From positions 62,001 through 126,000 of the forward strand of contig NZ_AKIZ01000040.1 of the NCBI RefSeq assembly GCF_000282595.1: a stretch of DNA of 64,000 nucleotides. Direction: 5' to 3'. The DNA is from Phyllobacterium sp. YR531 (lineage in GTDB: Bacteria; Pseudomonadota; Alphaproteobacteria; Rhizobiales; Rhizobiaceae). Both the position numbers and the translations under genes were made by a program. Shown piece after piece: positions 33,902-52,154 of this stretch. The notes under the pieces were generated by a model. That model was not told where the DNA came from and did no database searches. It was given only the letters and a program-made list of their open reading frames with translations. Positions within the stretch are counted from its first letter, which is position 1. Each line of letters opens with the position of its first letter.

Positions 33902-33932
33902 AGAAAGTCTCCCGTAGTGTCATGCTGTTGGC

Positions 33933-35165
33933 TTACGCCCGTGCGATTTCATCGAGGTACCACTGGATGTACCGCAGCTCGTTATATTCCATTGGTGCGA
34001 TTGGTCCCGGCACGAAGTAGTGCGAACGCACCCCTCGGGCCGTATGCTCGATGATTGTCTTGTCTTCGGCAGTGGTCACTTTCCAAAGCCAGGTGAGCTT
34101 TTCGAGGTCGTAGTCCTTGCCCTCTTCCGCATCACCGCGGACCAGCCAGATCAGTTCCATCTCGCATGTATCAACGGTTTTAGGGATAAACCGATAGATC
34201 ATGCCGTGGTCGGGATAACATACAAGGAAGCTCGTGCCGCCAAGATGAATGGAGGTTACACCACCATCGAACTCTGTAAATCGGCCCATAAGAGGCCCGA
34301 CAGGCGCGCCATCCTCGCTACCACTCGAAACACCATCGTAAAGGGCATAGCGGAAGGTGTGGATCGTCTCCTGCCCCTGTGCTGAACTTTGCCAATGATC
34401 GCCCGTCGCAATGTCAATCCCAAGAGCGCAAGTGCGCTGTTCCATACGGGCATTGAGTTCAACGATTTTTTCCGCGGGCTGCTCAAGCGCATGGGTTTGC
34501 GAATATTCCGGATGTGCCGGACCGCAATGGTAGCACTCCACATAATTCTCGACTGCGAGTTTCCAATTGGCATCAACCGGATAGGTTTCACGATGAGCAA
34601 CCTTGGCGTCTGCCCAGCCATATTGCCCGCAAGTCGTTCGCAATGATTGCTCAATAATTGAAAAATCCAGCGGTTCGTCGGCGAAGCAGATGAAAATCAG
34701 GCCTTCCACAACACGTACATGCAGCTTCTTCAAACCGTGGGCAGTGCGGTCAAAATCCCTTGGCATAAGCCTTGCTGCCCGCAGGCTTCCATCATTGGTG
34801 TACGTCCAAGCGTGATAGGGACACACGAAAAAGCGGGCATTACCCTTGGGCTTCGTACACACCTCGGCCCCGCGATGACGGCAAACATTGAGGAAGGCGT
34901 GGATGGAACCATCTTCGGTCCTTGAAACAATCACCGCCTCGCTATCAATCTTGAAGAGCTCGAAATCACCGGCATCGGGAATAATGCTGGCATGGCCGAT
35001 ACAATGCCAGTGACGCCGGAAAACACGCTCCATATCCCGGGCATAGATATCCGGATCGAGATAAAACGAACGAACCAGACCATGACCTGCCTTGTGCTCA
35101 GCAATCAGCCGGTCAATCTTGTCCAGAGACGGCACAATTTCTGCAAATGCCTGTTCCGCACCCAT
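33933..35165 (-). CDS. gbcA: Rieske oxygenase, glycine betaine monooxygenase-like
   Basis: A 410-residue ring-hydroxylating-type oxygenase alpha subunit. The Rieske centre is Cys95-His97 and Cys115-His118. The mononuclear iron motif is N207-x2-E210-x2-H213-x4-H218. This architecture and the neighbours match GbcA, which demethylates glycine betaine to dimethylglycine and formaldehyde. A carnitine or choline oxygenase is the alternative. The ATG at 35165 has CGGAG before it; an in-frame ATG at 35183 is possible. The reductase partner (GbcB) is not in the window. Confidence 0.8.
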   Translation of the reverse strand: MGAEQAFAEIVPSLDKIDRLIAEHKAGHGLVRSFYLDPDIYARDMERVFRRHWHCIGHASIIPDAGDFELFKIDSEAVIVSRTEDGSIHAFLNVCRHRGAEVCTKPKGNARFFVCPYHAWTYTNDGSLRAARLMPRDFDRTAHGLKKLHVRVVEGLIFICFADEPLDFSIIEQSLRTTCGQYGWADAKVAHRETYPVDANWKLAVENYVECYHCGPAHPEYSQTHALEQPAEKIVELNARMEQRTCALGIDIATGDHWQSSAQGQETIHTFRYALYDGVSSGSEDGAPVGPLMGRFTEFDGGVTSIHLGGTSFLVCYPDHGMIYRFIPKTVDTCEMELIWLVRGDAEEGKDYDLEKLTWLWKVTTAEDKTIIEHTARGVRSHYFVPGPIAPMEYNELRYIQWYLDEIARA

Positions 35166-35316
35166 TTTATTCTCCGAAATCATTGTTCTCGGACGCTTGT
35201 TTTCTCTGAGATAGCGTCGCAGTTTAGAATGATTCCGCATTGCGCAGCATTCAAGCGATGGTTACTCATAAAGACATGAATTATTCTCACCCGTCTCCAT
35301 TTGAAGGTTTTCTCGC

Positions 35317-36222
35317 ATGATGTCGAAGCCTCGGATACCGCCACTGGGTTCGCTGCGAGCCTTTGAAGCATCCGCGAGGCTTTTGAGTTTTCGCCTGGCC
35401 GGAGATGAGCTTGGCGTAACACAGTCGGCAATCAGCCACCGCATTGCCGAACTGGAGGCCATCCTTGGAGTGAAACTGTTCGAGCGGCTTCCACGAGGTG
35501 TTTCGCTCACTGATGCCGGAACGCTCTACTACCCCTATATGCGCGATGCTTTTGAGAAGATTGCGCGAGGAACGGCTCTGATAAACCGTATCGGAACAAC
35601 AGACGATCTGGCCATAGAAACCTACGCAACTTTCGCTATTCGCTGGCTCATACCGCGCCTGACTGATTTTCGTAAGGTAAACCCAAACCTCGCCATTCGT
35701 ATCGGCACAAGCCAATTGGATTGGGAGTTGAACATCGACAGCTCCGACATCGGAATTATACATACGACACGTCCCGAGCGGATGAACCTGCATTACAGGC
35801 AATTGGTAAAAGCGCAGATGCAACCTGTCTGCAGTCCGCAGTTGGCGGCACGTATTACAGATGATGCAGGGCTGAAGGCCTTGAGCAAGGTGCCGCGTCT
35901 TGCGCTCTACACCGCACCTGAGGATTGGGGCACTTGGCTCGACGCTGCTGGTATCGCCGACACGACCAGCGCAGTTACATTGAAGTTCGACACCTATCTT
36001 GCTGCACTTCAGTCCGCACTTGATGGTCAGGGGATCGCTGTTGCACCAGACTTTCTGGTCGATCAGGATATTAAAGCGGGAAGGCTCGTCGCACCGTTCC
36101 CGCTAAAGGTTCCGCAACCCGGCGCGTGGTATATGATCTGCCGCAAAGAGCGTGTTGGCGAGGCCCGTATAAAGCAGTTTGAAAATTGGCTGGTCGATCA
36201 GTTTAGTGCTATTTCTTCTTGA
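35317..36222 (+). CDS. LysR family regulator, GcvA-like
   Basis: A 301-residue LysR protein: winged helix at residues 8-66 (AFEASARLLSFRLAGDELGV, TQSAISHRIAELEAILG) and a periplasmic-binding-like effector domain to the end. The PPLGSLRAFEASARLLSF start is of the GcvA/AmpR subgroup. Divergent from the demethylase operon, with a 151-base gap containing a small GAATG/CATTC inverted repeat (35227-35252). It probably controls that operon, in response to a glycine derivative. Its end overlaps the convergent thioesterase by 14 bases. Confidence 0.88.
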   Translation: MMSKPRIPPLGSLRAFEASARLLSFRLAGDELGVTQSAISHRIAELEAILGVKLFERLPRGVSLTDAGTLYYPYMRDAFEKIARGTALINRIGTTDDLAIETYATFAIRWLIPRLTDFRKVNPNLAIRIGTSQLDWELNIDSSDIGIIHTTRPERMNLHYRQLVKAQMQPVCSPQLAARITDDAGLKALSKVPRLALYTAPEDWGTWLDAAGIADTTSAVTLKFDTYLAALQSALDGQGIAVAPDFLVDQDIKAGRLVAPFPLKVPQPGAWYMICRKERVGEARIKQFENWLVDQFSAISS

Positions 36223-36700
36223 TCCCAATGGCCCTTCCAGCCCGCTCTGGCGCTGGCAGCTTCGAATGTGCCTGTTTATAAAACTCAAGCTTTGGCAAAA
36301 CATCGTAAGGAAAAGGGACAACCTTCGGTCCATTCATATCCACATGCAACGAAAGTACTTCTGAGGTTGCAGCCACCCAGCCGTCCACATGAACGATCTC
36401 GTTATAGGTGTGAAGTCGCTTGCCATCGAAATCGATGAGCTGACTTGTAACGGTAACGATATGATCGAGATGAATTTCCTGCACGTAGCAGATATGCACT
36501 TCCGCAGTGTAGATCGTCAGCTTGCGTTCGGCGGCGTATTTCGGGCCAAAACCCAGCTCTGCCAGAAATTCGTCACCTCCACGGTCGAACACCACGTTGT
36601 AATAGGCCATGTTCAGATGGCCATTATAATCGATCCATTCCTTCTCCATGGAGATGGGTGCGGATCGGTATAGTTCCCCGGCTTGGTGACTGATTGTCAT
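36209..36700 (-). CDS. cdhB: Hot-dog thioesterase, probable betainyl-CoA thioesterase
   Basis: A 163-residue 4HBT-type acyl-CoA thioesterase with the catalytic-site motif WIDYNGHLNMAYYN (near residues 23-36). A GGAGC site precedes the ATG. In Pseudomonas and rhizobia a thioesterase of this family is encoded with, or fused to, L-carnitine dehydrogenase and releases betaine from betainyl-CoA. Here it is a separate gene, on the opposite strand from the dehydrogenase. The symbol follows the Pseudomonas usage I remember. Confidence 0.78.
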   Translation of the reverse strand: MTISHQAGELYRSAPISMEKEWIDYNGHLNMAYYNVVFDRGGDEFLAELGFGPKYAAERKLTIYTAEVHICYVQEIHLDHIVTVTSQLIDFDGKRLHTYNEIVHVDGWVAATSEVLSLHVDMNGPKVVPFPYDVLPKLEFYKQAHSKLPAPERAGRAIGIKKK

Positions 36701-36751: not shown

Positions 36752-37756
36752 TCATCGCTTTGCCAAAAGCGACTCTCGATGAACAGGCCGGAAGGCGCTA
36801 GGTGGCTTTCCTTCAAAACTGCGGAATGTGCGTGTAAACGCAGCTGCTGACGAAAATCCTGTGCGTGCAGCAATGTCAGCAAGTGGTGACCTTGTATCGG
36901 TAACCAGTCTACGCGCTACCTTCAGACGAAGCCGCAAATAATAACGCCCCGGCCCTTCACCCACGGCTTTGGCAAATATTTTTTCAAGGCTTCTTGCGCT
37001 GAGACCGCAACGTTTCGCAATCGCGCCAATGGTAAGCGGCTGCTCGATATGACTTTCCATAAGTCGCACTGCAACCGCAAGCATGGGATGTACGTCATCC
37101 AGACGGCCAAGCGAAACGAGTGGCTGAGCATCGTTTGAGGCATGCGCCTCGTCGTAAATGAACACACTCGCTACATCGAGCGCAACGGACATGCCATAGC
37201 GTGAACGGATCAAATGCAGCATCAGATCAAAAGTCGGGGAAGCCCCGCCACTGGTAAACACCGGACCATCAATGACGTACCGATCCGGCCTGATGTCCGC
37301 TTCGGGAAACTCGGCGGTAAACTCCTCCATGTCTTCCCAATGCGTCGTTGCCTTGCGCCCGGACAGTAATCCTGCACGCCCGAGCAGCCACGAACCAGCC
37401 TCAATGCCACCTATCATCTGGTAGTTATGGACAGCACGCCGCAAATTCGCGGTGAACGTTGTGCGTGCGATATCAGCAGTACCAAAACCACCGACCACTA
37501 GCAGCATATCGCCTTTTTCCCTGGCATTGAACGACCCGGAAACCGCAATTGGCAGCCCGCATGTTGTCATTGTCGGCCGTCCGTCAAGCGAAACGATCTG
37601 CCATTTGAACAATGCAGAACCCGAAACCCGGTTCGCCGCACGCATCGGATCTATCGTCGAGGCCACACACATAAGCGAAGCACCGCTGAAGACCAGAACA
37701 GTCACGCTCAACGTTTCGGTGTTGGGTAAAAAGAGTGGCGATATTTCGCTATTCAT
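36752..37756 (-). CDS. cdhR: GlxA/CdhR-type AraC family regulator
   Basis: A 334-residue regulator with an N-terminal DJ-1/PfpI-like effector domain (residues 12-200) and a C-terminal double helix-turn-helix of AraC type (225-325, with [19 protein letters not shown]). This architecture is that of CdhR and GbdR, which sense carnitine and betaine. It is divergent from the carnitine operon, with a 78-base gap, and lies 51 bases upstream of the thioesterase gene. It is the likely activator of both. Confidence 0.82.
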
Positions 37757-37834
37757 CAATTCTGTTTCGTATATCGCAAAGCATCGCTTGGCAATGGGGG
37801 CATGATCGGGTCAATAAATAATGGGAGCAGACGA

Positions 37835-38740
37835 ATGGGACTAACTCCAAATCGCGATGTATTCATCACTTGCGCAGTTACCGGCTCTGGCGACACTACA
37901 GGCCGGTCCGATAAAGTGCCGGTCACTCCACGCCAGATCGCCGACGAATGCATTGCAGCTGCAAATGCAGGCGCAGCCATTGCACATATCCACGTGCGTG
38001 ATCCCAAGACCGGCAAAGGTTCTCGTGACATTACGCTCTACACGGAGGTCGTCGAGCACATAAAGGCTTCGGGCGTCGACATGGTGTTGAACCTGACAGC
38101 AGGTATGGGCGGTGATCTGACGCTTGGCAGTGTAGAACAACCAATGCCACCTTCCGCTGACGGAACGGACATGGCCGGTGCGACAGAGCGACTGGAGCAT
38201 GTTGCCAAGCTTCGCCCCGAAATCTGCACACTTGATTGCGGCACGATGAATTTTGGCGAAGGCGACTACGTCATGACCAATACACCCGCCATGCTCAAGG
38301 CAATGGCCGCGCAGATTCAGGCGCTAGGTGTGCGGCCGGAAGTCGAAATTTTCGATACAGGCCACCTGCTGCTGGCAAAATGGCTTTACGATCAGAAGCT
38401 GCTCGATGACCCCGTCATGGTTCAGCTCTGCATGGGTATTCCATGGGGAGCACCCGACGATATCAATACACTGTTGGCCTTGACCAATAATCTGCCAGCC
38501 AATTGGACATTCTCTGCTTTCTCCATAGGGCGCAATCAGATGCCTTATGCTGCAATGGCAATGCTCGCAGGCGGCAATATTCGCGTTGGCCTTGAGGACA
38601 ATATCTGGCTCGACAAGGGCGTTCTGGCCACGAATGGTCCTTTGGTTGAACGTGCTGTGAAAGTCGCTGAGGGGATCGGTGCTCGTATTCTCGGACCTCA
38701 GGAAGTTCGTGAACGCATGAAATTGACAAAGGGCTGGTAA
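37835..38740 (+). CDS. cdhC: Beta-keto acid cleavage enzyme (dehydrocarnitine cleavage)
   Basis: A 301-residue TIM-barrel enzyme of the BKACE (DUF849) family. The zinc ligands His51 and His53 sit in [12 protein letters not shown]. In the family these enzymes exchange the acyl group of acetyl-CoA with a beta-keto acid. In carnitine operons the reaction is 3-dehydrocarnitine plus acetyl-CoA to betainyl-CoA plus acetoacetate. The start at 37835 is favoured by GGGAGC seven bases before it; an ATG at 37802 is in frame. The carnitine dehydrogenase follows four bases after its stop. Confidence 0.85.
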
Positions 38741-38744
38741 GATC

Positions 38745-39809
38745 ATGGCAAGCATTCGCAAAGCAGCAGCTGTCGGTGGCGGTGTCATCGGTGCAGGCTG
38801 GGTCGCCCGCCTGCTTCTCAATGGCATAGATGTTTCAATTTTCGACCCCGATCCGGAAGCGGAACGCAAGGTCAGCGAAGTCATGAAGAATTCGCGACGG
38901 GCATATAAGACGATGTTGCCCGATGGCCTGCCCAAGGAAGGCAAACTGACCTTTGCCAAGTCGATTGAGGAAGCTGTAGCTGGCGCGAATTTCATCCAGG
39001 AGAGCGTGCCGGAGCGGCTGGACGTTAAGCACAAGGTCTTGGCGGAAATCGACAAACATGCCGATGTTGATGCCATTATCGGTTCTTCAACTTCCGGCAT
39101 CCTGCCTTCAGACATGCAGACTTCGATGAAGTATCCGGAACGGCTGGTTGTGGGCCATCCATACAATCCTGTTTATCTGCTACCGCTTGTGGAAATCGTG
39201 GGCGGCAAGCTGACTTCGCCAGAATCCGTTGAAAAAGCGCGCGAACTCTATGCTTCGATAGGTATGAAACCTGTCGTCATCCGCAAGGAGATTGAAGCAT
39301 TCGTTGGTGATCGCCTGCTTGAGGCTGTGTGGCGTGAGTCCCTTTGGCTGATCAAGGACGATATTACGACTGTCGAGGAACTTGACGATATCATGCGCTA
39401 TTCGTTCGGCATTCGCTGGGCGCAGATGGGCATGTTTCAGGTCTATCGCGTCGCTGGCGGCGAGGCTGGCATGCGTCACTTCATTGCGCAGTTCGGCCCT
39501 TGCCTGTCATGGCCATGGACCAAACTCATGGACGTGCCAGAACTTACCGAAGAGCTGGTAGACAAGATTGCCAATCAGTCTGATGAGCAGGCGCACGGGC
39601 TTTCTATCCGCGAGCTTGAGCGCATACGCGATGACAACCTCGTTGCAATCATGGATGCTTTGTCAAAGCAGAACAAAGGCAAAGGTTGGGGTGCTGGTGC
39701 GCTCTACAAAGACTACACCAAGCGTCTTTCCAAGCTCGCACAGAAACCTGCTCTCTCCAAAGCGGCAGCCAAGGCTGTGACAAGCAAGCCTAAAAAGAAG
39801 AAGGGCTGA
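38745..39809 (+). CDS. cdhA: L-carnitine dehydrogenase
   Basis: A 354-residue NAD-dependent enzyme of the 3-hydroxyacyl-CoA dehydrogenase superfamily (also named lcdH). The Rossmann motif GGGVIGAGW is at residues 11-19 and the conserved VVGHPYNPVYLLPLVEIVGG region near 135. It oxidises L-carnitine to 3-dehydrocarnitine. It is about 30 residues longer than the Pseudomonas enzyme as I remember it. The extra part is a Lys/Ala-rich C-terminal tail ending KPKKKKG. In rhizobial homologues a thioesterase is fused at this end; here there is none. Confidence 0.88.
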   Translation: MASIRKAAAVGGGVIGAGWVARLLLNGIDVSIFDPDPEAERKVSEVMKNSRRAYKTMLPDGLPKEGKLTFAKSIEEAVAGANFIQESVPERLDVKHKVLAEIDKHADVDAIIGSSTSGILPSDMQTSMKYPERLVVGHPYNPVYLLPLVEIVGGKLTSPESVEKARELYASIGMKPVVIRKEIEAFVGDRLLEAVWRESLWLIKDDITTVEELDDIMRYSFGIRWAQMGMFQVYRVAGGEAGMRHFIAQFGPCLSWPWTKLMDVPELTEELVDKIANQSDEQAHGLSIRELERIRDDNLVAIMDALSKQNKGKGWGAGALYKDYTKRLSKLAQKPALSKAAAKAVTSKPKKKKG

Positions 39810-39813
39810 AACG

Positions 39814-40977
39814 ATGGATTTTGGTCTTTCAGAAGAACAAAGGCTGATCGTCGATACAACCCGAGCCTTCGTTGAAAATGAGCTTTATCCGCACGAGGCA
39901 GAAGTCGAACGTACCGGCGTTTTGCGCAAGGAACTTGCCGAGGAGTTGAAGCAAAAAGCTATAGAAGCTGGCCTTTATGCAGCCAATATGCCCGAATCCG
40001 TTGGCGGTGCCGGTCTCGATACGGTTACCTGGCTGCTATATGAAAAAGAATTGGGCCGCGCGAACTACGCGCTGCACTGGACCTGTGTCGGGCGTCCATC
40101 CAACATATTGCTGGCCGGAACCGATGCGCAGAAGGAAAAATATCTTTACCCCTGCATTCGCGGCGAAAAGTCTGACTGTCTGGCAATGACGGAACCCGGT
40201 GCTGGTTCTGATCTACGCGGCATGAAGGCGACCGCCGTCGAAAAAAATGGCGACTGGGTTGTCAATGGAACAAAGCACTTCATAAGCCATGCACTTGAAG
40301 CCGACTTCGTCATTCTCTTTGTAGCTTCCGGCGAGGAAGACACACCACGTGGCAAAAAAAAGAAGATCACTGCATTCTTCGTCGATAAAGACCACCCCGG
40401 CATGACCATCCGCGAAGGCTATCGCAACGTTTCTCATCGCGGCTACAGCAATGCGATTGTAGAATTCGACGACTGCCGCTTGCCGCAAGAAGCCATCCTT
40501 GGCGAAGTTCATAAGGGCTTCGAAGTTGCCAATACATGGTTGGGTGCCACACGCCTGCAGGTCGCCGCTACCTGTCTCGGCCGTGCAGAACGGGCGCTGG
40601 GTCATGCTATCGAATATGCTGCCCAACGTCAGCAGTTCGGTCAGCAGATCGGCAAGTTCCAGGGTGTCTCCTTCAAGCTCGCGGATATGGCAACCGAGTT
40701 GAAAGCAGCGGACCTTTTGACCTTCGAGGCCGGCTGGAAATTTGATCAGGGTACTGTCACGGATCAGGACATGGCCATGGCCAAACTCAAGGCCACGGAA
40801 ATGCTGGCATTTGTAGCTGACGAAGCCATCCAGATTCATGGCGGCATGGGCCTGATGGATGATCTGCCACTTGAAAGGATCTGGCGCGACGCTCGCGTTG
40901 AGCGCATCTGGGAAGGCACTTCCGAGATACAGCGGCATATCATATCGCGTGCCCTGCTCCGCCCTCACGGTGCATGA
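39814..40977 (+). CDS. Acyl-CoA dehydrogenase, candidate gamma-butyrobetainyl-CoA dehydrogenase
   Basis: A 387-residue flavoprotein with the three acyl-CoA dehydrogenase domains. TEPGAGSDLRGMKATA (near 130), QIHGGMGLMDD (near 345) and the catalytic Glu367 (RIWEGTSEIQR) are present. It would introduce the 2,3-double bond into an acyl-CoA. Lying between the carnitine dehydrogenase and a CoA synthetase and CaiD homologue, it probably acts on gamma-butyrobetainyl-CoA, giving crotonobetainyl-CoA, as CaiA does in reverse. Its stop overlaps the start of the next gene. Confidence 0.82.
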   Translation: MDFGLSEEQRLIVDTTRAFVENELYPHEAEVERTGVLRKELAEELKQKAIEAGLYAANMPESVGGAGLDTVTWLLYEKELGRANYALHWTCVGRPSNILLAGTDAQKEKYLYPCIRGEKSDCLAMTEPGAGSDLRGMKATAVEKNGDWVVNGTKHFISHALEADFVILFVASGEEDTPRGKKKKITAFFVDKDHPGMTIREGYRNVSHRGYSNAIVEFDDCRLPQEAILGEVHKGFEVANTWLGATRLQVAATCLGRAERALGHAIEYAAQRQQFGQQIGKFQGVSFKLADMATELKAADLLTFEAGWKFDQGTVTDQDMAMAKLKATEMLAFVADEAIQIHGGMGLMDDLPLERIWRDARVERIWEGTSEIQRHIISRALLRPHGA

Positions 40978-43049
40978 TGGCACATAAACTGGATCGTTTG
41001 CTTCGACCCAAGACCATTGCTGTTTTTGGCGGCCTTCAGGCTGCTGAAGTTATCAAGCAATCACAAAAAATGGGGTTTTCCGGCGAAATATGGCCTGTTC
41101 ACCCTAAACATGATGAAATATGCGGACTAAAGGTATATCGCTCTGTCGCTGATTTACCAGCAGGTCCTGATGCCGCATTCATAGGCGTCAATCGCTTTCT
41201 CACATTGGATATTGTCCGCGAATTGCGCGAGATAGGCACTGGCGTTGCTGTCTGCTACGCATCAGGCTTCCTTGAAGCAGGCGCGGATGATGCTGATGGC
41301 GCAAGGTTGCAGCAAGAACTGGTTGAAGCTGCCGGCGAAATGCCGATCATCGGCCCCAATTGCTACGGCCTGATCAACTATTGCGATGGCGCTTTGCTTT
41401 GGCCCGATCAACATGGCGGCAGGCGGTTAGAGCAGAATGAGCGCGGCGTTGCCATCATCACGCAATCGTCCAATATCGCAATCAATATGACAATGCAGAC
41501 GCGCGGCCTGCCGATTGCTCATGTTATGACCGCGGGCAATCAGGCCCAGACTGGCCTGCCCGATATGGCGATTGCGCTCCTTGAGGACGAACGGGTTACG
41601 GCTCTCGGCCTGCACATCGAAGCATTTCAATCTGCGCCAAAGTTCGAATTGCTGGCAAAACGCGCCCGTGAACTGCGTAAGCCTATTGTTGCCATGAAGG
41701 TGGGGCGCTCTGAGCAGGCACGTGCTGCGACAGTATCCCATACTGCCTCACTTGCTGGTTCCGACGCTGCTTCAGGCGCTTTTCTGAAAAGACTGGGCAT
41801 TGCCCGGGTCAATTCAATTGCCTCGTTCCTTGAAACCCTCAAATTACTGCACGTACATGGACCGCTAGAGGGCAATACACTCTGCTCAATGAGTTGTTCC
41901 GGTGGTGAAGCATCTGTCATGGCGGACAGCGCCGAGGGGCGTTTGGTCCACTTTCCGCCTTTGACAATGGAGCATCGCGCCAAAGTAAAATCGACGCTTG
42001 GGCCTTTGGTGGCGGTAGCCAATCCACTCGATTACCACACCTTCATCTGGAACAATGAACCGGCATTGACCGATACTTTTACAGCGATGGTCTCTGGCGG
42101 TTTCTCCTTAAGCTGTCTCGTTCTCGACTTCCCGCGCAAGGATCGTTGCTCAGATGTTGACTGGTGGTCGACTGTTCGAGGCTTCGAAAGTGCCTTGACG
42201 ACAAATAAAGCCAAAGGGGCAATCGTTGCCTCGCTGCCGGAGAACATTCCCGAGGAATACATGACCGGGCTGATGGCAAAAGGCATCGCCCCACTTTGCG
42301 GAATTACTGAAGCTTTCGACGCTGCCGAAGCCGCAGCTTTCATTGGCAAAGCTTGGAAAGCTCCAATTGGTTTGCCCGTTGCCGTTCCAAAGAATTGCAT
42401 CGAACAAACAGCAACACCGGATGAAGCTCAGGGAAAGGCGATTTTGAAATCTGCTGATCTACCGGTTCCAAATGGTCAACGCTGTGTAACATCTGACGAA
42501 GCAATAGCGATCGCCAACAGGCTGACATACCCGGTTGCTCTCAAAGCCTTGGGCATTGCCCACAAGTCTGAACAGAATGCCGTCCGGCTCAACTTGAAGG
42601 ACGCTGGCGCTGTCAAAGAAGCCGCTGACGATCTGGCTGGTCTTGGATCAGGTATCTATATCGAGCGCATGGTGACCGGAACAGTTGCTGAGCTTATCGT
42701 CGGAATCATCGACGACCCGCAGTTTGGTCCTGTCATGACCTTGGGCACTGGCGGCATTCTGGTGGAACTGCTCCAGGATAGTGTTACTTTGCTGCTACCG
42801 TCGAGCCGCGAGGACATCGAAGCGGCCTTACGCGCATTGCGTATGTTTCCGCTACTTGATGGTTATCGTGGCAAACCGCAGGCCGATCTCGATGCAGCTC
42901 TGGATGCAATCGTTGGTATTGCTGCATTTGCCGTGAGAAATACCGGAAAAATTGCTGAACTCGATATTAATCCGCTACTGGTTTGTGGCTTGGGACAAGG
43001 CGCTTGGATCGCCGATGCATTGCTGGTGACAAAGGGAGAACTGTCATGA
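40974..43049 (+). CDS. ADP-forming acyl-CoA synthetase, candidate betaine/carnitine CoA ligase
   Basis: A 691-residue fused protein of the NDP-forming acetyl-CoA synthetase family: CoA-binding domain (10-140), succinyl-CoA ligase-like flavodoxin domain with the phosphorylated His256 (TVSHTASLAGSD), and an ATP-grasp domain (from about 480). It would activate a carboxylate with ATP and CoA through phosphohistidine. Linkage to the acyl-CoA dehydrogenase and CaiD homologue makes gamma-butyrobetaine, crotonobetaine or carnitine likely substrates, replacing the CaiC ligase and CaiB transferase of enterics. ATG at 40974 or 40977; overlaps the previous stop by four bases. Confidence 0.82.
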   Translation: MMAHKLDRLLRPKTIAVFGGLQAAEVIKQSQKMGFSGEIWPVHPKHDEICGLKVYRSVADLPAGPDAAFIGVNRFLTLDIVRELREIGTGVAVCYASGFLEAGADDADGARLQQELVEAAGEMPIIGPNCYGLINYCDGALLWPDQHGGRRLEQNERGVAIITQSSNIAINMTMQTRGLPIAHVMTAGNQAQTGLPDMAIALLEDERVTALGLHIEAFQSAPKFELLAKRARELRKPIVAMKVGRSEQARAATVSHTASLAGSDAASGAFLKRLGIARVNSIASFLETLKLLHVHGPLEGNTLCSMSCSGGEASVMADSAEGRLVHFPPLTMEHRAKVKSTLGPLVAVANPLDYHTFIWNNEPALTDTFTAMVSGGFSLSCLVLDFPRKDRCSDVDWWSTVRGFESALTTNKAKGAIVASLPENIPEEYMTGLMAKGIAPLCGITEAFDAAEAAAFIGKAWKAPIGLPVAVPKNCIEQTATPDEAQGKAILKSADLPVPNGQRCVTSDEAIAIANRLTYPVALKALGIAHKSEQNAVRLNLKDAGAVKEAADDLAGLGSGIYIERMVTGTVAELIVGIIDDPQFGPVMTLGTGGILVELLQDSVTLLLPSSREDIEAALRALRMFPLLDGYRGKPQADLDAALDAIVGIAAFAVRNTGKIAELDINPLLVCGLGQGAWIADALLVTKGELS

Positions 43050-43828
43050 ACGAAGTCGTCAGAACACGTCGCGAAGGCGGCATTCTCGAAGTCACTCTTG
43101 ACCGGCCAAAGGCTAATGCAATTGATCTCACCACCAGCAGGCTACTCGGTGAAACGTTCAAGAAATTCAGGGATGATCCGGAATTACGTGTTGCCATAGT
43201 GCAGACTGAAGGCGACAAATTCTTCTGTGCCGGATGGGACTTGAAAGCTGCGGCTGGCGGCGATGCTGTTGATGGTGATTATGGCGTCGGCGGTTTTGGC
43301 GGTTTACAGGAACTGCTTGACCTCAACAAACCTGTCATTGCTGCCGTCAATGGCATGGCTGTAGGTGGCGGTTTCGAACTTGCCCTCTCCTGTGACCTGA
43401 TCTACGCGTCCGATCATTCAAGCTTTGCACTGCCGGAAATCCGGGCCGGAACCTTGGCAGACGCCGCAACGGTAAAACTGCCCAAGCGTATTCCTTATCA
43501 TGTTGCGATGGATTTGCTTCTGACTGGCCGCTGGATGGATGTTGCTGAGGCGCATCGGTGGGGTCTCGTCAACGAGGTTCTACCCAAAGACGATCTTATG
43601 GCACGCGTGTGGGAAATTGCGCGCATGCTTGAAAGCGGCCCGCCTCTGGTCTTCGCCGCAATCAAAGAAGTTGCTCGGGAAGCGGAAAACATGGGTTTCC
43701 AAGAAGCCATGAACTGGATTACCAAGCGCAAATTCCGTACGGTGGACACACTTTACGCCTCCGAGGACGGCCAGGAAGGCTTTAAGGCATTTGCTGAAAA
43801 GCGCGATCCCGTATGGAAAGGTAAATGA
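43046..43828 (+). CDS. caiD: CaiD-like carnitinyl-CoA dehydratase
   Basis: A 260-residue crotonase. It resembles E. coli CaiD along its whole length in my memory: LDRPKANAID, FFCAGWDLKAAA, CDLIYASDHSSFALPE, and the end EKRDPVWKGK. The catalytic glutamates are Glu111 and Glu131, the same positions as in E. coli CaiD. Predicted reaction: crotonobetainyl-CoA plus water to L-carnitinyl-CoA. ATG overlaps the previous stop (ATGA). Confidence 0.85.
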   Translation: MNEVVRTRREGGILEVTLDRPKANAIDLTTSRLLGETFKKFRDDPELRVAIVQTEGDKFFCAGWDLKAAAGGDAVDGDYGVGGFGGLQELLDLNKPVIAAVNGMAVGGGFELALSCDLIYASDHSSFALPEIRAGTLADAATVKLPKRIPYHVAMDLLLTGRWMDVAEAHRWGLVNEVLPKDDLMARVWEIARMLESGPPLVFAAIKEVAREAENMGFQEAMNWITKRKFRTVDTLYASEDGQEGFKAFAEKRDPVWKGK

Positions 43829-44775
43829 CGGCAGATTATTCGATACTTATCGACGAGCAGACCTGGGCCTTCATCGAACGGACCAACAGCTTCTATCCGC
43901 CAGATTCAATAGACTATTCTGTCGCCCGGCAACGTGAAGTTTACGACACCATGTGCCGGGCATTCTTCGCTGAATACCCGGAGGCGGTTTCTTCCGCAAA
44001 TCGCTTCATCGAAGCTCGCAATCACCGCATACCAATCCGCATTTACGAAAAGGCCGGGAGCGATCCGGAAGCGGTTTGTCTTTATTTTCACGGTGGTGGC
44101 TTCGTTGTTGGTGGCCTCGAAAGTCACGACGACGTTTGCGCGGAACTGTGTGATGCAACCGGCTTTCGGATAGTCTCGGTAGACTACCGCCTTGCACCCG
44201 AACATCTGCATCCCGCTGCATTCCGTGATTGCCTCGCAGCCTTTGAGCATGTTGCATCAACGTCTGAACTTCACATCATTCTCTGCGGTGACAGCGCAGG
44301 CGGTAACCTTGTTGCAGCCGTTACACACCATGTACGACACCACCAGCGTGCACCGATAGGTCAGGTTTTAATCTATCCCGGGCTTGGCGGGGCAACAGAT
44401 CAGGGTTCGTACCTTGAGCATGCGGATGCACCGATGCTGACAACGCGAGACACGCTCTATTACGCAGACATTCGCGGCGGTGGGTTCAATTGGTCAACCG
44501 ATCCGCGCTTTGCGCCCCTGAACGACCCGGATTTTACAGAACTGCCTGACACGATTGTTATTTCGGCTGAATGCGATCCGCTATCAGATGATGGCCGCAA
44601 TTATTGCGACAAGATCAGCGCTGCTGGCGGAAAGGCCATCTGGAACAACGAGCCCGGGCTGGTTCACGGATATCTGCGTGCGCGCCACGGTGTTGATCGT
44701 GCACGGGCAAGCTTCCGGCGGATTACCACCGCCGTTCACCTGCTTGGCCAGCGTCGCTGGCCCGGGCAACTCTAG
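43825..44775 (+). CDS. Alpha/beta hydrolase (HSL family), candidate acylcarnitine esterase
   Basis: A 316-residue hormone-sensitive-lipase-type hydrolase. The oxyanion motif HGGGF starts at residue 89, the nucleophile is Ser157 (GDSAGG), and Asp251 (SAECDPLSDD) and His281 (LVHGYLR) complete the triad. It is the last gene of the carnitine operon and overlaps caiD by four bases. In Pseudomonas a hydrolase in the carnitine locus (HocS) cleaves short-chain O-acylcarnitines. The same role is proposed here from context. Its stop abuts the convergent ABC gene with no gap. Confidence 0.82.
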   Translation: MTADYSILIDEQTWAFIERTNSFYPPDSIDYSVARQREVYDTMCRAFFAEYPEAVSSANRFIEARNHRIPIRIYEKAGSDPEAVCLYFHGGGFVVGGLESHDDVCAELCDATGFRIVSVDYRLAPEHLHPAAFRDCLAAFEHVASTSELHIILCGDSAGGNLVAAVTHHVRHHQRAPIGQVLIYPGLGGATDQGSYLEHADAPMLTTRDTLYYADIRGGGFNWSTDPRFAPLNDPDFTELPDTIVISAECDPLSDDGRNYCDKISAAGGKAIWNNEPGLVHGYLRARHGVDRARASFRRITTAVHLLGQRRWPGQL

Positions 44776-46437
44776 CTAATTGCCAGCACTGGTCATACGT
44801 CTTGTCTTCATAGCTGTTTCCAACCAACCGAGTTCCATCTCGGGCACCGAAGACAAGAGCAAATCTGTATAATCGTCGAAAGGCGGCTTCAACACTTCAG
44901 ACTTGGGTCCATAACGAACCATTTCACCGCGATACATGACAGCAATGGAGTCCGAAATGGATTTCACCGTAGCCAGATCGTGGGTGATGAAAAGGTAAGC
45001 GACGTTTTCATCCTTCTGCAAATCCAGAAGCAGCTTCAAAATTCCATCCGCTACCAGTGGGTCGAGTGCACTTGTCACCTCATCGCAGATGATGAGCTTC
45101 GGCTTTGCCGCCAAGGCACGAGCAATACAGACACGCTGTTTTTGCCCCCCGGAAAGCTCAGCAGGGTAACGATCTGCAAAGCCCTTACCCATTTCGATTT
45201 TTTCAAGCAGCTCGGCAACGCGCTTGTCCCGCTCCTTGCCTCGCATCCCGAAATAAAACTCCAGCGGACGACCAATGATGGTTCCGACCGTTTGACGCGG
45301 ATTCATCGCTGTATCAGCCATCTGATAAATCATCTGCAACTCACGCAGATCATCTCGCGTGCGGTTGGCAAGTCGCGCAGAAAGCGTCCGCCCTTCAAAG
45401 GTGATTGTACCTTCCATTGGCGGCAACAGCCCTGTGATGGCACGCGCTAGGGTGGATTTGCCTGATCCGGATTCACCTACGACAGCCAATGTCTGCCCAA
45501 GATGAATATCAACTGACACTTGCTTGAGCACTTTAACGACACCGCCACCGTAAGCAGCAGTGACATTCTTCACCGAAAGAATAGGTTTGCCGGTGGAATT
45601 CTTCTGTTCGTGGGGAATGTGATGTACTGACACAAGCTGGTTCGTATATTGCTGGCGCGGTTCCTTGATAATCTGACGCGTGTCGCCATACTCAACAAGC
45701 TTTCCGTGGCGCAAAACGATGATGTCATCTGCCACTTGCGCAACCACTGCAAGATCATGGGTAATATAAAGCGCAGCGACATTTGTGTCCCGGATCGCGT
45801 CTTTAATAGACGCCAGAACATCAATCTGCGTGGTAACATCAAGCGCTGTTGTTGGTTCGTCGAATACAATCAGGTCCGGCTCAGAGCAGAGCGCCATGGC
45901 AGTCATCGCACGCTGCAACTGCCCCCCGGATACCTGATGCGGGAACCGCTGTCCGAATGTTTCAGGATTAGGCAACCCCAACTTCTTGAACAGACCCACT
46001 GCACGTTTTTCCGCCTCTGCCTTCGAACAGATTTTGTGCAGCAATGCAGCTTCGATGACCTGATCCATCAGCTTGCGGGCAGGATTGAAAGCTGCTGCGG
46101 CCGATTGCGCGACGTAACAAACTTCGCGGCCGCGGATCTGCCGCAAAACCTTGGCGCCGCCTTTCAATATGTCACGACCGTTCAGTAAGACTTCGCCGCC
46201 AGTGATACGCACACCGCCACGACCAAAGCCCATGCTTGAAAGCCCGATTGTCGATTTACCTGCACCGGACTCGCCAATCAATCCCAGCACTTTCCCACGC
46301 TCAACTTTAACCGAAACATCGTCGACTATAACGATATTCTTCGGCGGTTCGCCGGGAGGATAACTTGTTGCTTCGATACGCAGATTGCGAATGTCGAGAA
46401 GAAGGCCGCTTTTGTCTTTCAATGGAGCTTTCGCCAT
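44776..46437 (-). CDS. Peptide-type ABC transporter, fused double ATPase
   Basis: A 553-residue protein with two ABC domains in tandem (DppD-like then DppF-like). Each has Walker A (GLIGESGAGKST near 39; AVVGESGSGKST near 318) and a signature (VSGGQLQRAM; LSGGQKQRVC). It powers the importer made by the next three genes upstream on this strand. ATG overlaps the previous TAA by one base (TAATG). Fused pairs are common in rhizobia. Confidence 0.9.
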   Translation of the reverse strand: MAKAPLKDKSGLLLDIRNLRIEATSYPPGEPPKNIVIVDDVSVKVERGKVLGLIGESGAGKSTIGLSSMGFGRGGVRITGGEVLLNGRDILKGGAKVLRQIRGREVCYVAQSAAAAFNPARKLMDQVIEAALLHKICSKAEAEKRAVGLFKKLGLPNPETFGQRFPHQVSGGQLQRAMTAMALCSEPDLIVFDEPTTALDVTTQIDVLASIKDAIRDTNVAALYITHDLAVVAQVADDIIVLRHGKLVEYGDTRQIIKEPRQQYTNQLVSVHHIPHEQKNSTGKPILSVKNVTAAYGGGVVKVLKQVSVDIHLGQTLAVVGESGSGKSTLARAITGLLPPMEGTITFEGRTLSARLANRTRDDLRELQMIYQMADTAMNPRQTVGTIIGRPLEFYFGMRGKERDKRVAELLEKIEMGKGFADRYPAELSGGQKQRVCIARALAAKPKLIICDEVTSALDPLVADGILKLLLDLQKDENVAYLFITHDLATVKSISDSIAVMYRGEMVRYGPKSEVLKPPFDDYTDLLLSSVPEMELGWLETAMKTRRMTSAGN

Positions 46438-47261
46438 TATCCGCGCCCTCCCTTCAGACTGGTGGTTCGGTTCAATATCCAGTCAGCCACAAGATTGACC
46501 GAGATGGCGAGAACAGCGATTGCCGCAGCTGGAATGAGTGCTGCCGGTATGCCGAAGACGATACCTTCCTTGTTCTCCTTCACCATTCCACCCCAATCGG
46601 CATCCGGCGGTTGAACACCAAGTCCGAGGAAGGAAAGCGCCGAAAGAAAAAGCACTGCAAATATGAACCTCAGTCCTAATTCTGCAATCAAGGGTGTCAG
46701 AGCATTGGGCAGTATCTCGCGGAAGATAATCCAGATACGCCCTTCGCCGCGCAGCTTTGCAGCTTCAACGAAGTCCATCACATTGATATCGACTGCGACA
46801 GCTCGCGCCAGACGATATACGCGGGTAGCGTCCAGCAGTCCCATCACAAGAATGAGCGTAAGAACGTTTGCCGGCAGAACCGAAAGCACCACAAGTGCAA
46901 AGATCAGTGTCGGTATCGCCATGATCAGATCGACGAATCGCGACATGAGCTGATCGAACCAGCCTCCGATAACCGCAGCAGCAAAACCAAGAACCGAGCC
47001 CAGGATGAACGAGAGCGCTGTTGCCATGGCAGCAATAAAAATGGTGATGCGTGCACCAAAAATCATACGCGACAACAGATCCCTGCCCAGATTGTCAGTG
47101 CCAAGCAGGTATTTGGCCGACATGGGTTCCCACACATCGCCTACAGTCTCGCCAACGGGATACGGTGCAACCCAGGGCGCAAAGACTGCCGCAAAGATGA
47201 AGACTGCGGTGACGATAAGTCCGATCCACGCGCTGATTGGAATATTCTTTACGTTCAACAT
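46437..47261 (-). CDS. Peptide-type ABC transporter permease (DppC-like)
   Basis: A 274-residue permease with about six helices and the EAA loop (VEAAKLRGEGRIWIIFREILPN). The SAKYLLGTDNLGRDLLSR segment near residue 50 is characteristic of DppC/OppC. The start at 47261 is chosen because GAGG precedes it and the upstream permease stops at 47272; the open frame extends further upstream in the other gene. Confidence 0.9.
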   Translation of the reverse strand: MLNVKNIPISAWIGLIVTAVFIFAAVFAPWVAPYPVGETVGDVWEPMSAKYLLGTDNLGRDLLSRMIFGARITIFIAAMATALSFILGSVLGFAAAVIGGWFDQLMSRFVDLIMAIPTLIFALVVLSVLPANVLTLILVMGLLDATRVYRLARAVAVDINVMDFVEAAKLRGEGRIWIIFREILPNALTPLIAELGLRFIFAVLFLSALSFLGLGVQPPDADWGGMVKENKEGIVFGIPAALIPAAAIAVLAISVNLVADWILNRTTSLKGGRG

Positions 47262-47271
47262 TGCGCGAGCC

Positions 47272-48231
47272 TCACTTGGGATGCCTGAGGCGGGGATTGG
47301 AAACAATCGCCACGATATCAGCAATGATATTCAGGCTGACATAGACAGCCGCGAAAATAAGCCCGCATGCCTGAACAACCGGCACATCGCGCTTGGCCAC
47401 ATGATCCACCAGATACTGACCCATACCGGGGTATACGAAGATCACCTCAACAACCACGACACCCACGACCAGAAATGCCAGATTGAGCATGACTACGTTG
47501 ACGATTGGCGCAATGGCATTCGGGAAAGCGTGACGGGTGATGATCTGCAACGGTGAAAGCCCCTTCAGCTCCGCTGTTTCGACATAGGCGGACTGCATGA
47601 CGTTGAGAATGGCCGCGCGGGTCATGCGCATCATATGTGCCAAAACGACGAGCGTCAGAACAGTGACGGGTAGAGCGATGGCGCTGAGCCTTTCACCCAG
47701 CGACATGCCTTCATAAACCGTAGAAACACTTGGAAACCATTGCAGACGAACGGCAACGAAATAGATCAACAGGTAGCCGGTAAAAAACTCCGGCAGCGAT
47801 GTTGAAGCCAGACCAAGACCGGAGATGAGTTTGTCCACGAAACCGTTGCGATAGCGAACTGCCAGCAATCCAAGGCCAATGGCCAGCGGGATGGAAACAA
47901 TTGCCGCCCAGAACGCCAGGAACAGGGTGTTCCAAAGCCTTCCTTTCAACGAGCTTGCTATATCCTGCCCGCTCGATAGAGCCGTTCCCAGATCGCCAGT
48001 CAATATGCCGCCAAGCCAATGAAGGTAGCGGATGTAGGCTGGATCATTCAGCCCCATGTCGCGCCGCAGGTTTTCAAGTGCCTGCGGTGTGGCGGACTGC
48101 CCTAGGATGGATTGCGCAACGTCTCCCGGCAGAATCTGCGTGCCGGCGAAAATCAGCACGGAAACTGCAAGGAGGAGAAGGATGCCCATCGCAATGCGTT
48201 GGGCAACCAGTTTAAGGACAGGCGTACTCAT
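47272..48231 (-). CDS. Peptide-type ABC transporter permease (DppB-like)
   Basis: A 319-residue permease with an N-terminal helix, a long periplasmic loop (with LPGDVAQSILGQSATPQ and LHWLGGILTGDLGTAL) and five further helices. EAA-like loop ETAELKGLSPLQIITRHAFPN is present. Pairs with the DppC-like protein and starts 13 bases after the binding protein stops. Confidence 0.9.
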   Translation of the reverse strand: MSTPVLKLVAQRIAMGILLLLAVSVLIFAGTQILPGDVAQSILGQSATPQALENLRRDMGLNDPAYIRYLHWLGGILTGDLGTALSSGQDIASSLKGRLWNTLFLAFWAAIVSIPLAIGLGLLAVRYRNGFVDKLISGLGLASTSLPEFFTGYLLIYFVAVRLQWFPSVSTVYEGMSLGERLSAIALPVTVLTLVVLAHMMRMTRAAILNVMQSAYVETAELKGLSPLQIITRHAFPNAIAPIVNVVMLNLAFLVVGVVVVEVIFVYPGMGQYLVDHVAKRDVPVVQACGLIFAAVYVSLNIIADIVAIVSNPRLRHPK

Positions 48232-48244
48232 CTGCCGGGCCCTA

Positions 48245-49834
48245 TCAGGCGTTCAGCCAGCAACGCGAAAGCGCGTAACCGCCACTCATCTCCTGATTGC
48301 CGTCCGCTACCCAACCACCAACCTTTGCACTCGTTGCATCAATGAAGTCGTTGAACATTGGAACAATAACACCGCCCTCGTCGCGAACGATGACAGACAT
48401 ATTGCGGTACATTGCCTTGCGCTTGGCCTCATCCAGTTCACCTCGTGCCGTGATCAGCAGCTTGTCGAACTTCTCGTTGAAGAACCGGGTATCATTCCAG
48501 TCGGCTGTCGACAGATAGGCTGTAGAATACATCTGGTCCTGTGTCGGACGACCGCCCCAATAGGATTCGGAGAATGGTTGCTTGTTCCACACCTCTGACC
48601 AGTATCCATCGCCCGGCTCGCGCTTGACCTCAATCGTAATGCCAGCCTTTGCTGCACTTTGCTGATAAAGCTGAGCTGCATCGACAGCGCCCGGAAAAGC
48701 GACGTCCGAGGTGCGAAGCAGTACCGGACCGTCGTGGCCAGACTTTTTGAAGTGGAAGGCGGCCTTGTCCGGATCATATGCACGCTGTTCGATATCGTCT
48801 GAGAACAGCGGATATGCCTTGTTGATCGGGAAATCGTTACCGACCGATCCATAGCCGCGCAGGATTTTCTGCACCATGTCTTCGCGGTTCATGGCGTATT
48901 TCAGCGCAAGCCGCAGGTCTACATTGTCAAATGGCGCCGTGTTGCAGTGAGCGATGAAGACATAATGTCCCTTACCTGCAACGTTTTGAATTGTAACGCC
49001 AGGTACGCGTTTGACCAGATCGACGATCTTTGGCTCAACACGGTTGATCATGTGCACCTGCCCTGACTGCAGGGCAGATGTACGGGCAGTCGCATCATTA
49101 ATAACGATAATCTCAATCTGCTCGGCATGGCCGCGCTTGTCGCCATTCCAGTAATTTGCGAACTTCGTACCAATATGACGAACACCTGGCTCATCGGTAA
49201 CGACCTTGTAGGGTCCGGTACCAATACCGGCCGTTGGTTTGTCTTTGCCACCGTTTGGCTGGATCATCAGGTGGTAATCATCCATCAGGAATGGCAAATC
49301 GGCATTCGCCTCCTTGAGTGTGAAAACAACCGTATCACCATCCTTCTTGACGCTGGCGATACCGCCCATCACGCCCAAGGCTCCGGACTTTGAATTCGCA
49401 TCGGAATGGCGTTCCATGGTCGCCACAACGTCGTCCGGCGTCATGTCCTTGCCATCATGAAACTGAACGCCCTTGCGGATCTTGAATGTCCAGACCTTGG
49501 CATCGTCAGACGAGCCCCACTCCTCGGCTAGCTTTGGCTGTAATGTACCGTCCGGCTGGATTTCAACAAGCTGTTCGCCCCATTGGCGCCCGAATTTGTA
49601 TGGAACCTGGCTTTGCCAAGTTGCGGGATCAAGACTGTCCGTAGAGGCGCCGCCCTGCATACCTGCTTTAAGCGTGCCACCCTTGACCGGACCTTCAGCC
49701 AAAGCTGCGCTGGTCAGAAGTGAATTGGCAAAAACTGTCGTAACGCCGAGAGCGGCAGCGCGGCCGAGAAAATCACGGCGAGAAAGCTTCCCGAGTGCGA
49801 CCCTGCGGCTGAGATAGTCGAGTTCATTAGACAT
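48245..49834 (-). CDS. Peptide-type ABC transporter substrate-binding protein
   Basis: A 529-residue SBP of family 5. The N-terminal signal contains the twin-arginine motif LSRRDFLGRAA, so it is probably exported folded by Tat. It carries no lipobox. First gene of the importer operon, which converges on the carnitine operon. The ligand may be a peptide, but neighbours suggest a carnitine ester or another betaine-like compound; that is a guess. Confidence 0.88.
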   Translation of the reverse strand: MSNELDYLSRRVALGKLSRRDFLGRAAALGVTTVFANSLLTSAALAEGPVKGGTLKAGMQGGASTDSLDPATWQSQVPYKFGRQWGEQLVEIQPDGTLQPKLAEEWGSSDDAKVWTFKIRKGVQFHDGKDMTPDDVVATMERHSDANSKSGALGVMGGIASVKKDGDTVVFTLKEANADLPFLMDDYHLMIQPNGGKDKPTAGIGTGPYKVVTDEPGVRHIGTKFANYWNGDKRGHAEQIEIIVINDATARTSALQSGQVHMINRVEPKIVDLVKRVPGVTIQNVAGKGHYVFIAHCNTAPFDNVDLRLALKYAMNREDMVQKILRGYGSVGNDFPINKAYPLFSDDIEQRAYDPDKAAFHFKKSGHDGPVLLRTSDVAFPGAVDAAQLYQQSAAKAGITIEVKREPGDGYWSEVWNKQPFSESYWGGRPTQDQMYSTAYLSTADWNDTRFFNEKFDKLLITARGELDEAKRKAMYRNMSVIVRDEGGVIVPMFNDFIDATSAKVGGWVADGNQEMSGGYALSRCWLNA

Positions 49835-51959: not shown

Positions 51960-52154
51960 TACCACCTTTCGCCCTCACATGGAGACGAAAACGGGTGATG
52001 CACGCCGGACCGAGAGCCAACGAAAATTACAATCCCATTTTCTCGTCTTTGCGAGGCGTTTTCTTATGCCCGCACTATGCGCATTTGCCCGTCGCAACAG
52101 AGCAAACACTTGCGACAAAATTCCCGCCATTTGCGCCAAACGCTATTATGCACA

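Follow-up and report, generated by a model that had tools for sequence, protein, structure and literature searches.

Phyllobacterium orthologues of a rhizobial operon predicted to convert gamma-butyrobetaine to carnitine via coenzyme A esters

The window analysed here is a stretch of 64,000 nucleotides (nt) of Phyllobacterium sp. YR531 (contig NZ_AKIZ01000040.1, positions 62,001 to 126,000), from a genome of 5.0 Mb in 41 contigs. It contains a carnitine operon in which genes for an acyl-coenzyme A (CoA) dehydrogenase (ACAD), an NDP-forming acyl-CoA synthetase (ACS) and a homologue of the hydratase CaiD follow the genes for a BKACE enzyme and an L-carnitine 3-dehydrogenase (CDH):

37802..38740, forward strand: BKACE gene (PF05853, E=2e-95), the first operon gene in 104 of the 110 relatives
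38745..39809, forward strand: stand-alone CDH, 354 aa (NF005716, 597.6 bits, cut-off 592)
39814..40977, forward strand: ACAD, proposed gamma-butyrobetainyl-CoA dehydrogenase, 387 aa (PF00441/PF02770/PF02771)
40974..43049, forward strand: NDP-forming acyl-CoA synthetase, predicted BcoAB orthologue, 691 aa (PF13380, PF13607, PF13549)
43046..43828, forward strand: CaiD-like crotonobetainyl-CoA hydratase, 260 aa (ECH_1; best family NF002936)
43825..44775, forward strand: alpha/beta-hydrolase (HSL type), candidate (thio)esterase (PF07859, E=4e-55)

Gaps of 4 nt separate BKACE from CDH and CDH from ACAD. The ACAD and synthetase genes overlap by 4 nt (ATGA), as do the synthetase gene and caiD, and all three lie in a single operon with the two preceding genes. 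The alpha/beta-hydrolase gene is the sixth of this operon and overlaps caiD in the same manner. The start of the CaiD homologue is likely the ATG at 43046, inside the synthetase stop (ATGA), the TTG at 42983 in the open reading frame (ORF) list being too early. A previous sequence-only reading of this DNA had placed three overlapping genes at 39814-43828 in a carnitine operon, and they are present there with the expected domains.

The synthetase, which occurs as a single copy in the genome, is composed of the CoA_binding_2, Succ_CoA_lig and ATP-grasp_5 domains. These three domains and the phosphohistidine place it in the NDP-forming acyl-CoA synthetase (ACD) superfamily, and the fold is evident from the sequence. 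For comparison, 110 loci with an operon-type synthetase were collected from a scan of GTDB genomes and plasmids (some species are repeated), and the window proteins were mapped onto each locus. The phosphohistidine, His256 in the motif SHTASLAG, is invariant in these 110 relatives and is kept too in the paralogues and in the lyase DddX. The domains and this residue bear out the proposed NDP-forming, phosphohistidine type of the synthetase. W143, Y354 and W359 are invariant in all 110 operon-type synthetases, H355 is found in 108 and W397 in 109, and most of these five positions differ in the paralogues. A reasonable reading of the alignment is that the conserved aromatic residues would suit a trimethylammonium-binding pocket. 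In a FastTree phylogeny including DddX and the other paralogues, the operon synthetases and that of the window form one clade (support 1.0 with locus L127 and 0.96 without it), and DddX and the other paralogues fall outside.

The ACAD comprises the N-terminal, middle and C-terminal Acyl-CoA_dh domains, and its catalytic base is in place by eye (WEGTSEIQ). For the CaiD homologue, the best NCBIfam model is crotonobetainyl-CoA hydratase (316 bits, the next family scoring 100 bits lower), and inspection by eye locates the crotonase-family pair of catalytic glutamates in GGGFEL and LPEI. The proposed match to CaiD with both glutamates thus holds. Genes of the CoA_transf_3 (CaiB) and AMP-binding (CaiC-type) families are absent from the window, as had been noted, though the genome has members of both elsewhere; the combination of CaiB and CaiC with CaiA and CaiD which characterizes the enteric cai operon is therefore not found in the window. 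As an alternative route, a gamma-butyrobetaine hydroxylase was looked for in the genome and none was found: the sole TauD-family match is weak (28.7 bits) and its open frame appears clavaminate-synthase-like by eye.

The order BKACE-CDH-ACAD-ACS-CaiD is conserved in 104 of the 110 loci, Sinorhizobium meliloti included; among the six others, L028, L040 and L057 begin too near a contig end to show the order. One of the 110 (L127) has no CaiD match. The loci examined come from Rhizobium, Sinorhizobium, Shinella, Neorhizobium, Mesorhizobium, Phyllobacterium and Sulfitobacter. In the congeneric set of 18 loci, taken in full, every locus shows BKACE-CDH-ACAD-ACS-CaiD-hydrolase, with GlxA, thioesterase, LysR, Rieske and dimethylglycine-dehydrogenase-type genes beside the operon, and the operon proteins of one genome of the genus are up to 96% identical to those of the window. 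The ligase-dehydrogenase-hydratase triad is thus a conserved unit across the Hyphomicrobiales and Roseobacteraceae.

Some loci depart from this picture. On a Ruegeria plasmid (L121, 1666-10796), ACAD-ACS-CaiD is accompanied by genes for GlxA, for an FAD oxidoreductase and for a member of the MTTB family, BKACE and CDH not being nearby. On a Sinorhizobium numidicum plasmid (L001, 10007-12863), an ACS-CaiD pair close to the Mesorhizobium type stands without CDH, and the two other ACADs there are little like that of the window. In this synthetase H355 is replaced by glutamine and the W397 region is altered, which suggests from the alignment a different substrate. In at least two Mesorhizobium loci (L083, 5072-5701; L086, 5029-5658), a 209-aa HD-domain protein is encoded between BKACE and CDH.

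The closest counterpart for which biochemistry is available is that of S. meliloti. Strain Ak57 (L130, CP090106.1) encodes GlxA, BKACE, CDH fused to a thioesterase, ACAD, synthetase and CaiD in the same order as the window. Identities with the window proteins are 65% for BKACE, 65% for CDH, 66% for ACAD and 73% for CaiD; the synthetases share 60% over 468 and 48% over 207 residues, about 56% overall. The Ak57 record has a single interruption in the synthetase frame, which is unannotated there. The record is titled pSymB, yet its length of 3.72 Mb is more in keeping with the S. meliloti chromosome. Apart from these identities of about 56-73%, the S. meliloti bco/carnitine operon and the window have in common the same five genes in the same order, a divergent GlxA-type regulator and a related ABC transporter. 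Unlike S. meliloti, Phyllobacterium has a distinct thioesterase gene, located on the other strand, as well as an alpha/beta-hydrolase gene behind caiD, and it encodes the transporter on the opposite strand. The fusion of CDH to a thioesterase, a trait of the bco operon, is lacking in the window; we treat it as a lineage trait of rhizobia which does not belong to the definition of the triad.

The S. meliloti enzymes were reportedly characterized by Bazire et al. 2019 (J Bacteriol 201:e00772-18), a study whose last author is Perret. The synthetase BcoAB of this species, named gamma-butyrobetaine:CoA ligase, produces gamma-butyrobetainyl-CoA in the presence of ATP, Mg and CoA, as confirmed by mass spectrometry, with a BcoAB plasmid supplied by A. 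Perret (PMC8364193). According to the part of PMC12482172 that cites Bazire et al. 2019, SM2011_c01638 of S. meliloti catalyses both the oxidation of carnitine and the formation of glycine betaine from betainyl-CoA.

From sequence comparison, we consider it very probable that the window encodes, by orthologous genes, the Phyllobacterium version of the Sinorhizobium/Agrobacterium-type pathway which leads from gamma-butyrobetaine to carnitine via CoA esters. The shared operon order, the activity of S. meliloti BcoAB, the common clade, the conserved aromatic residues and the failure to find a hydroxylase-type gene in the genome all lead to this assignment. BcoAB would phosphorylate its own His256 with ATP and then form gamma-butyrobetainyl-CoA. 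The FAD-dependent dehydrogenase would convert this ester to crotonobetainyl-CoA, to which the CaiD-like hydratase would add water to yield L-carnitinyl-CoA. After release of CoA, in a manner considered below, L-carnitine would be oxidized by CDH. BKACE would then cleave the CDH product to betainyl-CoA, the separate thioesterase would hydrolyze betainyl-CoA to glycine betaine, and the neighbouring Rieske and dimethylglycine-dehydrogenase-type enzymes may demethylate the latter. Both the proposed conversion to L-carnitinyl-CoA by activation, dehydrogenation and hydration and its direction, opposite to that of the enteric cai pathway, find good support in the orthology and the conserved gene order shared with S. 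meliloti. The activation had also been called unusual. This part does not stand, because the S. meliloti BcoAB, from an operon of the same order, is already published as a gamma-butyrobetaine:CoA ligase and activation by an NDP-forming ligase is thus known. The chemistry of the sequence-only reading is right and its novelty wrong: the route was already worked out in S. meliloti, and the present locus adds Phyllobacterium, to which the characterized rhizobial route now extends. In the literature nothing was found on Phyllobacterium in connection with butyrobetaine. The database label ‘acetate--CoA ligase family protein’ masks a betaine ligase which is recognizable by its conserved residues.

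Several points weigh against this assignment. The CaiD and ACAD matches fall under the NCBIfam equivalog cut-offs (500 bits for the hydratase model). The synthetase of the window is only about 56% identical to that of S. meliloti, whose operon synthetase we equate with the published BcoAB by operon position and kind of enzyme, not by accession. The ligase reaction is known for the S. meliloti enzyme, and that of Phyllobacterium is predicted from its sequence. In addition, the content of Bazire et al. 2019 is taken here from two other papers, which either refer to it or work with its material. The proposal was said to fall if the synthetase ignored betaine acids; the opposite result is available for the S. 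meliloti orthologue, at about 56% identity, and for that orthologue only.

Among solved structures, DddX (7cm9) is the top match of the synthetase by sequence score (E=1e-60), and among the NCBIfam models the ACAD fits acryloyl-CoA reductase best, at a score far under the cut-off. Both observations would fit an ATP-dependent dimethylsulfoniopropionate (DMSP) lyase which forms DMSP-CoA and splits it into dimethyl sulfide and acryloyl-CoA, the latter being processed by the dehydrogenase, in the role of acryloyl-CoA reductase, and by the hydratase. The key residues reported for DddX are H292, W391, F435 and E432 (PMC8163506), of which only the histidine is kept in the window synthetase. W391 corresponds to His355; the lyase base E432 is replaced by Asp here and by Ala, Gly or Thr in the rhizobial orthologues; F435 falls in a gapped column of the alignment, with a Trp beside it. 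DddX moreover lies outside the clade of operon synthetases, which are encoded among carnitine genes in 104 of the 110 loci, so that a DMSP lyase appears extremely unlikely. On the residue alignment and the tree, we rejected the DddX identity.

A broader specificity also has to be weighed. NDP-forming synthetases are often broad in substrate, and on the Ruegeria plasmid the triad occurs with neither BKACE nor CDH close by. Both points could fit a triad that acts on some other betaine, or on short-chain or branched acids in general, and is linked to the carnitine genes by co-regulation only. However, the CaiD homologue resembles crotonobetainyl-CoA hydratase, the triad is tightly coupled to CDH and BKACE, and the published S. 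meliloti orthologue is active on gamma-butyrobetaine; we regard this explanation as very unlikely. The triad might finally operate in the enteric direction and reduce crotonobetaine to gamma-butyrobetaine, given that enzymes of the acyl-CoA dehydrogenase and hydratase types may catalyse both directions and that CaiA and CaiD are homologous. Such a direction has next to no probability in our view: no dedicated fixABCX-like genes were noticed around the operon in the ORF list, and the carnitine-degrading operon to which the triad belongs, together with its Rieske oxygenase, indicates an aerobic context.

In the favoured route from gamma-butyrobetaine to carnitine, CoA has to leave L-carnitinyl-CoA, and the loci differ in what they offer for this step. 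The CDH of Rhizobium and Sinorhizobium carries a fused C-terminal thioesterase, in proteins of about 496 aa. The Phyllobacterium CDH has a Lys-rich tail in its place, NF005716 covering positions 1-341 of 495 only, and the thioesterase is encoded apart from CDH by a divergent gene (36209-36700). In Mesorhizobium the CDH is mostly about 357-370 aa long and no match to the thioesterase domain was found in the loci examined. The alpha/beta-hydrolase gene follows caiD in Phyllobacterium, and in Mesorhizobium wherever the locus extends far enough; it does not stand directly behind caiD in the Rhizobium and Sinorhizobium operons. Since L119, a genome of the same family, has both the hydrolase after caiD and a fused CDH, the hydrolase is not a simple replacement of the thioesterase. 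Candidates for the release are the thioesterase, the alpha/beta-hydrolase and the ligase itself working in reverse. The third option has some appeal, given that ADP-forming ligases work in both directions. A ligase running backwards on L-carnitinyl-CoA (ADP + Pi to ATP) would allow gamma-butyrobetaine to become carnitine at no net ATP cost and without a thioesterase, an idea we put forward tentatively and hold to be rather unlikely. If it were true, the ligase would do what CaiB does by CoA transfer, and release in Mesorhizobium, with no thioesterase homologue in the loci examined, would fall to the reverse ligase reaction or the extra alpha/beta-hydrolase. Nothing was found in the literature on carnitinyl-CoA release in rhizobia.

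Other known systems provide further comparisons. The Rhizobium-like strain HK4, employed in industrial carnitine production, uses a CoA-ester route from gamma-butyrobetaine, according to reviews (PMC2131755, PMC3546705). As far as the described pathway allows comparison, CoA thioesterification, dehydrogenation and hydration to L-carnitine, followed by carnitine dehydrogenase, resemble the route proposed here, in another organism. The Escherichia coli cai operon shares the homologous CaiA dehydrogenase and CaiD hydratase, acting on the same CoA esters, but the CoA transferase CaiB and the AMP-forming CaiC take the place of the NDP-forming ligase and the pathway is anaerobic and reductive. In the bbu cluster of Emergencia timonensis gamma-butyrobetaine is likewise activated as a CoA thioester, but by class III CoA transferases, and a flavoenzyme eliminates trimethylamine (PMC8364193). 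DddX belongs to the same synthetase superfamily, with a phosphohistidine and an onium acid as substrate (PMC8163506); it differs by W391 and E432, absent from the window synthetase, and by its separate branch in the tree.

The neighbouring genes are as follows:

36752..37759, reverse strand: GlxA/AraC-type regulator, divergent from the operon (DJ-1_PfpI + HTH_18; best NCBIfam match GbdR)
36209..36700, reverse strand: stand-alone 4HBT thioesterase, counterpart of the rhizobial CDH C-terminal domain (PF13279; NF005716 profile positions 351-494 of 495)
33933..35240, reverse strand: Rieske oxygenase, GbcA-like glycine betaine monooxygenase (NF058607, 278 bits, below the cut-off of 670)
29013..33901, reverse strand: two tandem FAD/GcvT oxidoreductases, dimethylglycine/sarcosine dehydrogenase type (DAO + FAO_M + GCV_T)
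44776..49834, reverse strand: peptide-type ABC transporter (ATPase, two permeases, binding protein), with orthologues adjoining the operon in Rhizobium and Sinorhizobium

The region 29013-35240 is likely a branch for glycine betaine demethylation, and the ABC transporter (44776..49834) is probably responsible for carnitine/betaine uptake. A CocE/NonD-family hydrolase, possibly acting on acyl esters or amides, is encoded at 49956-51965, upstream of the gene for the binding protein of the transporter. The Rieske oxygenase and tandem FAD/GcvT oxidoreductase genes also adjoin the operon in several Neorhizobium-type loci.

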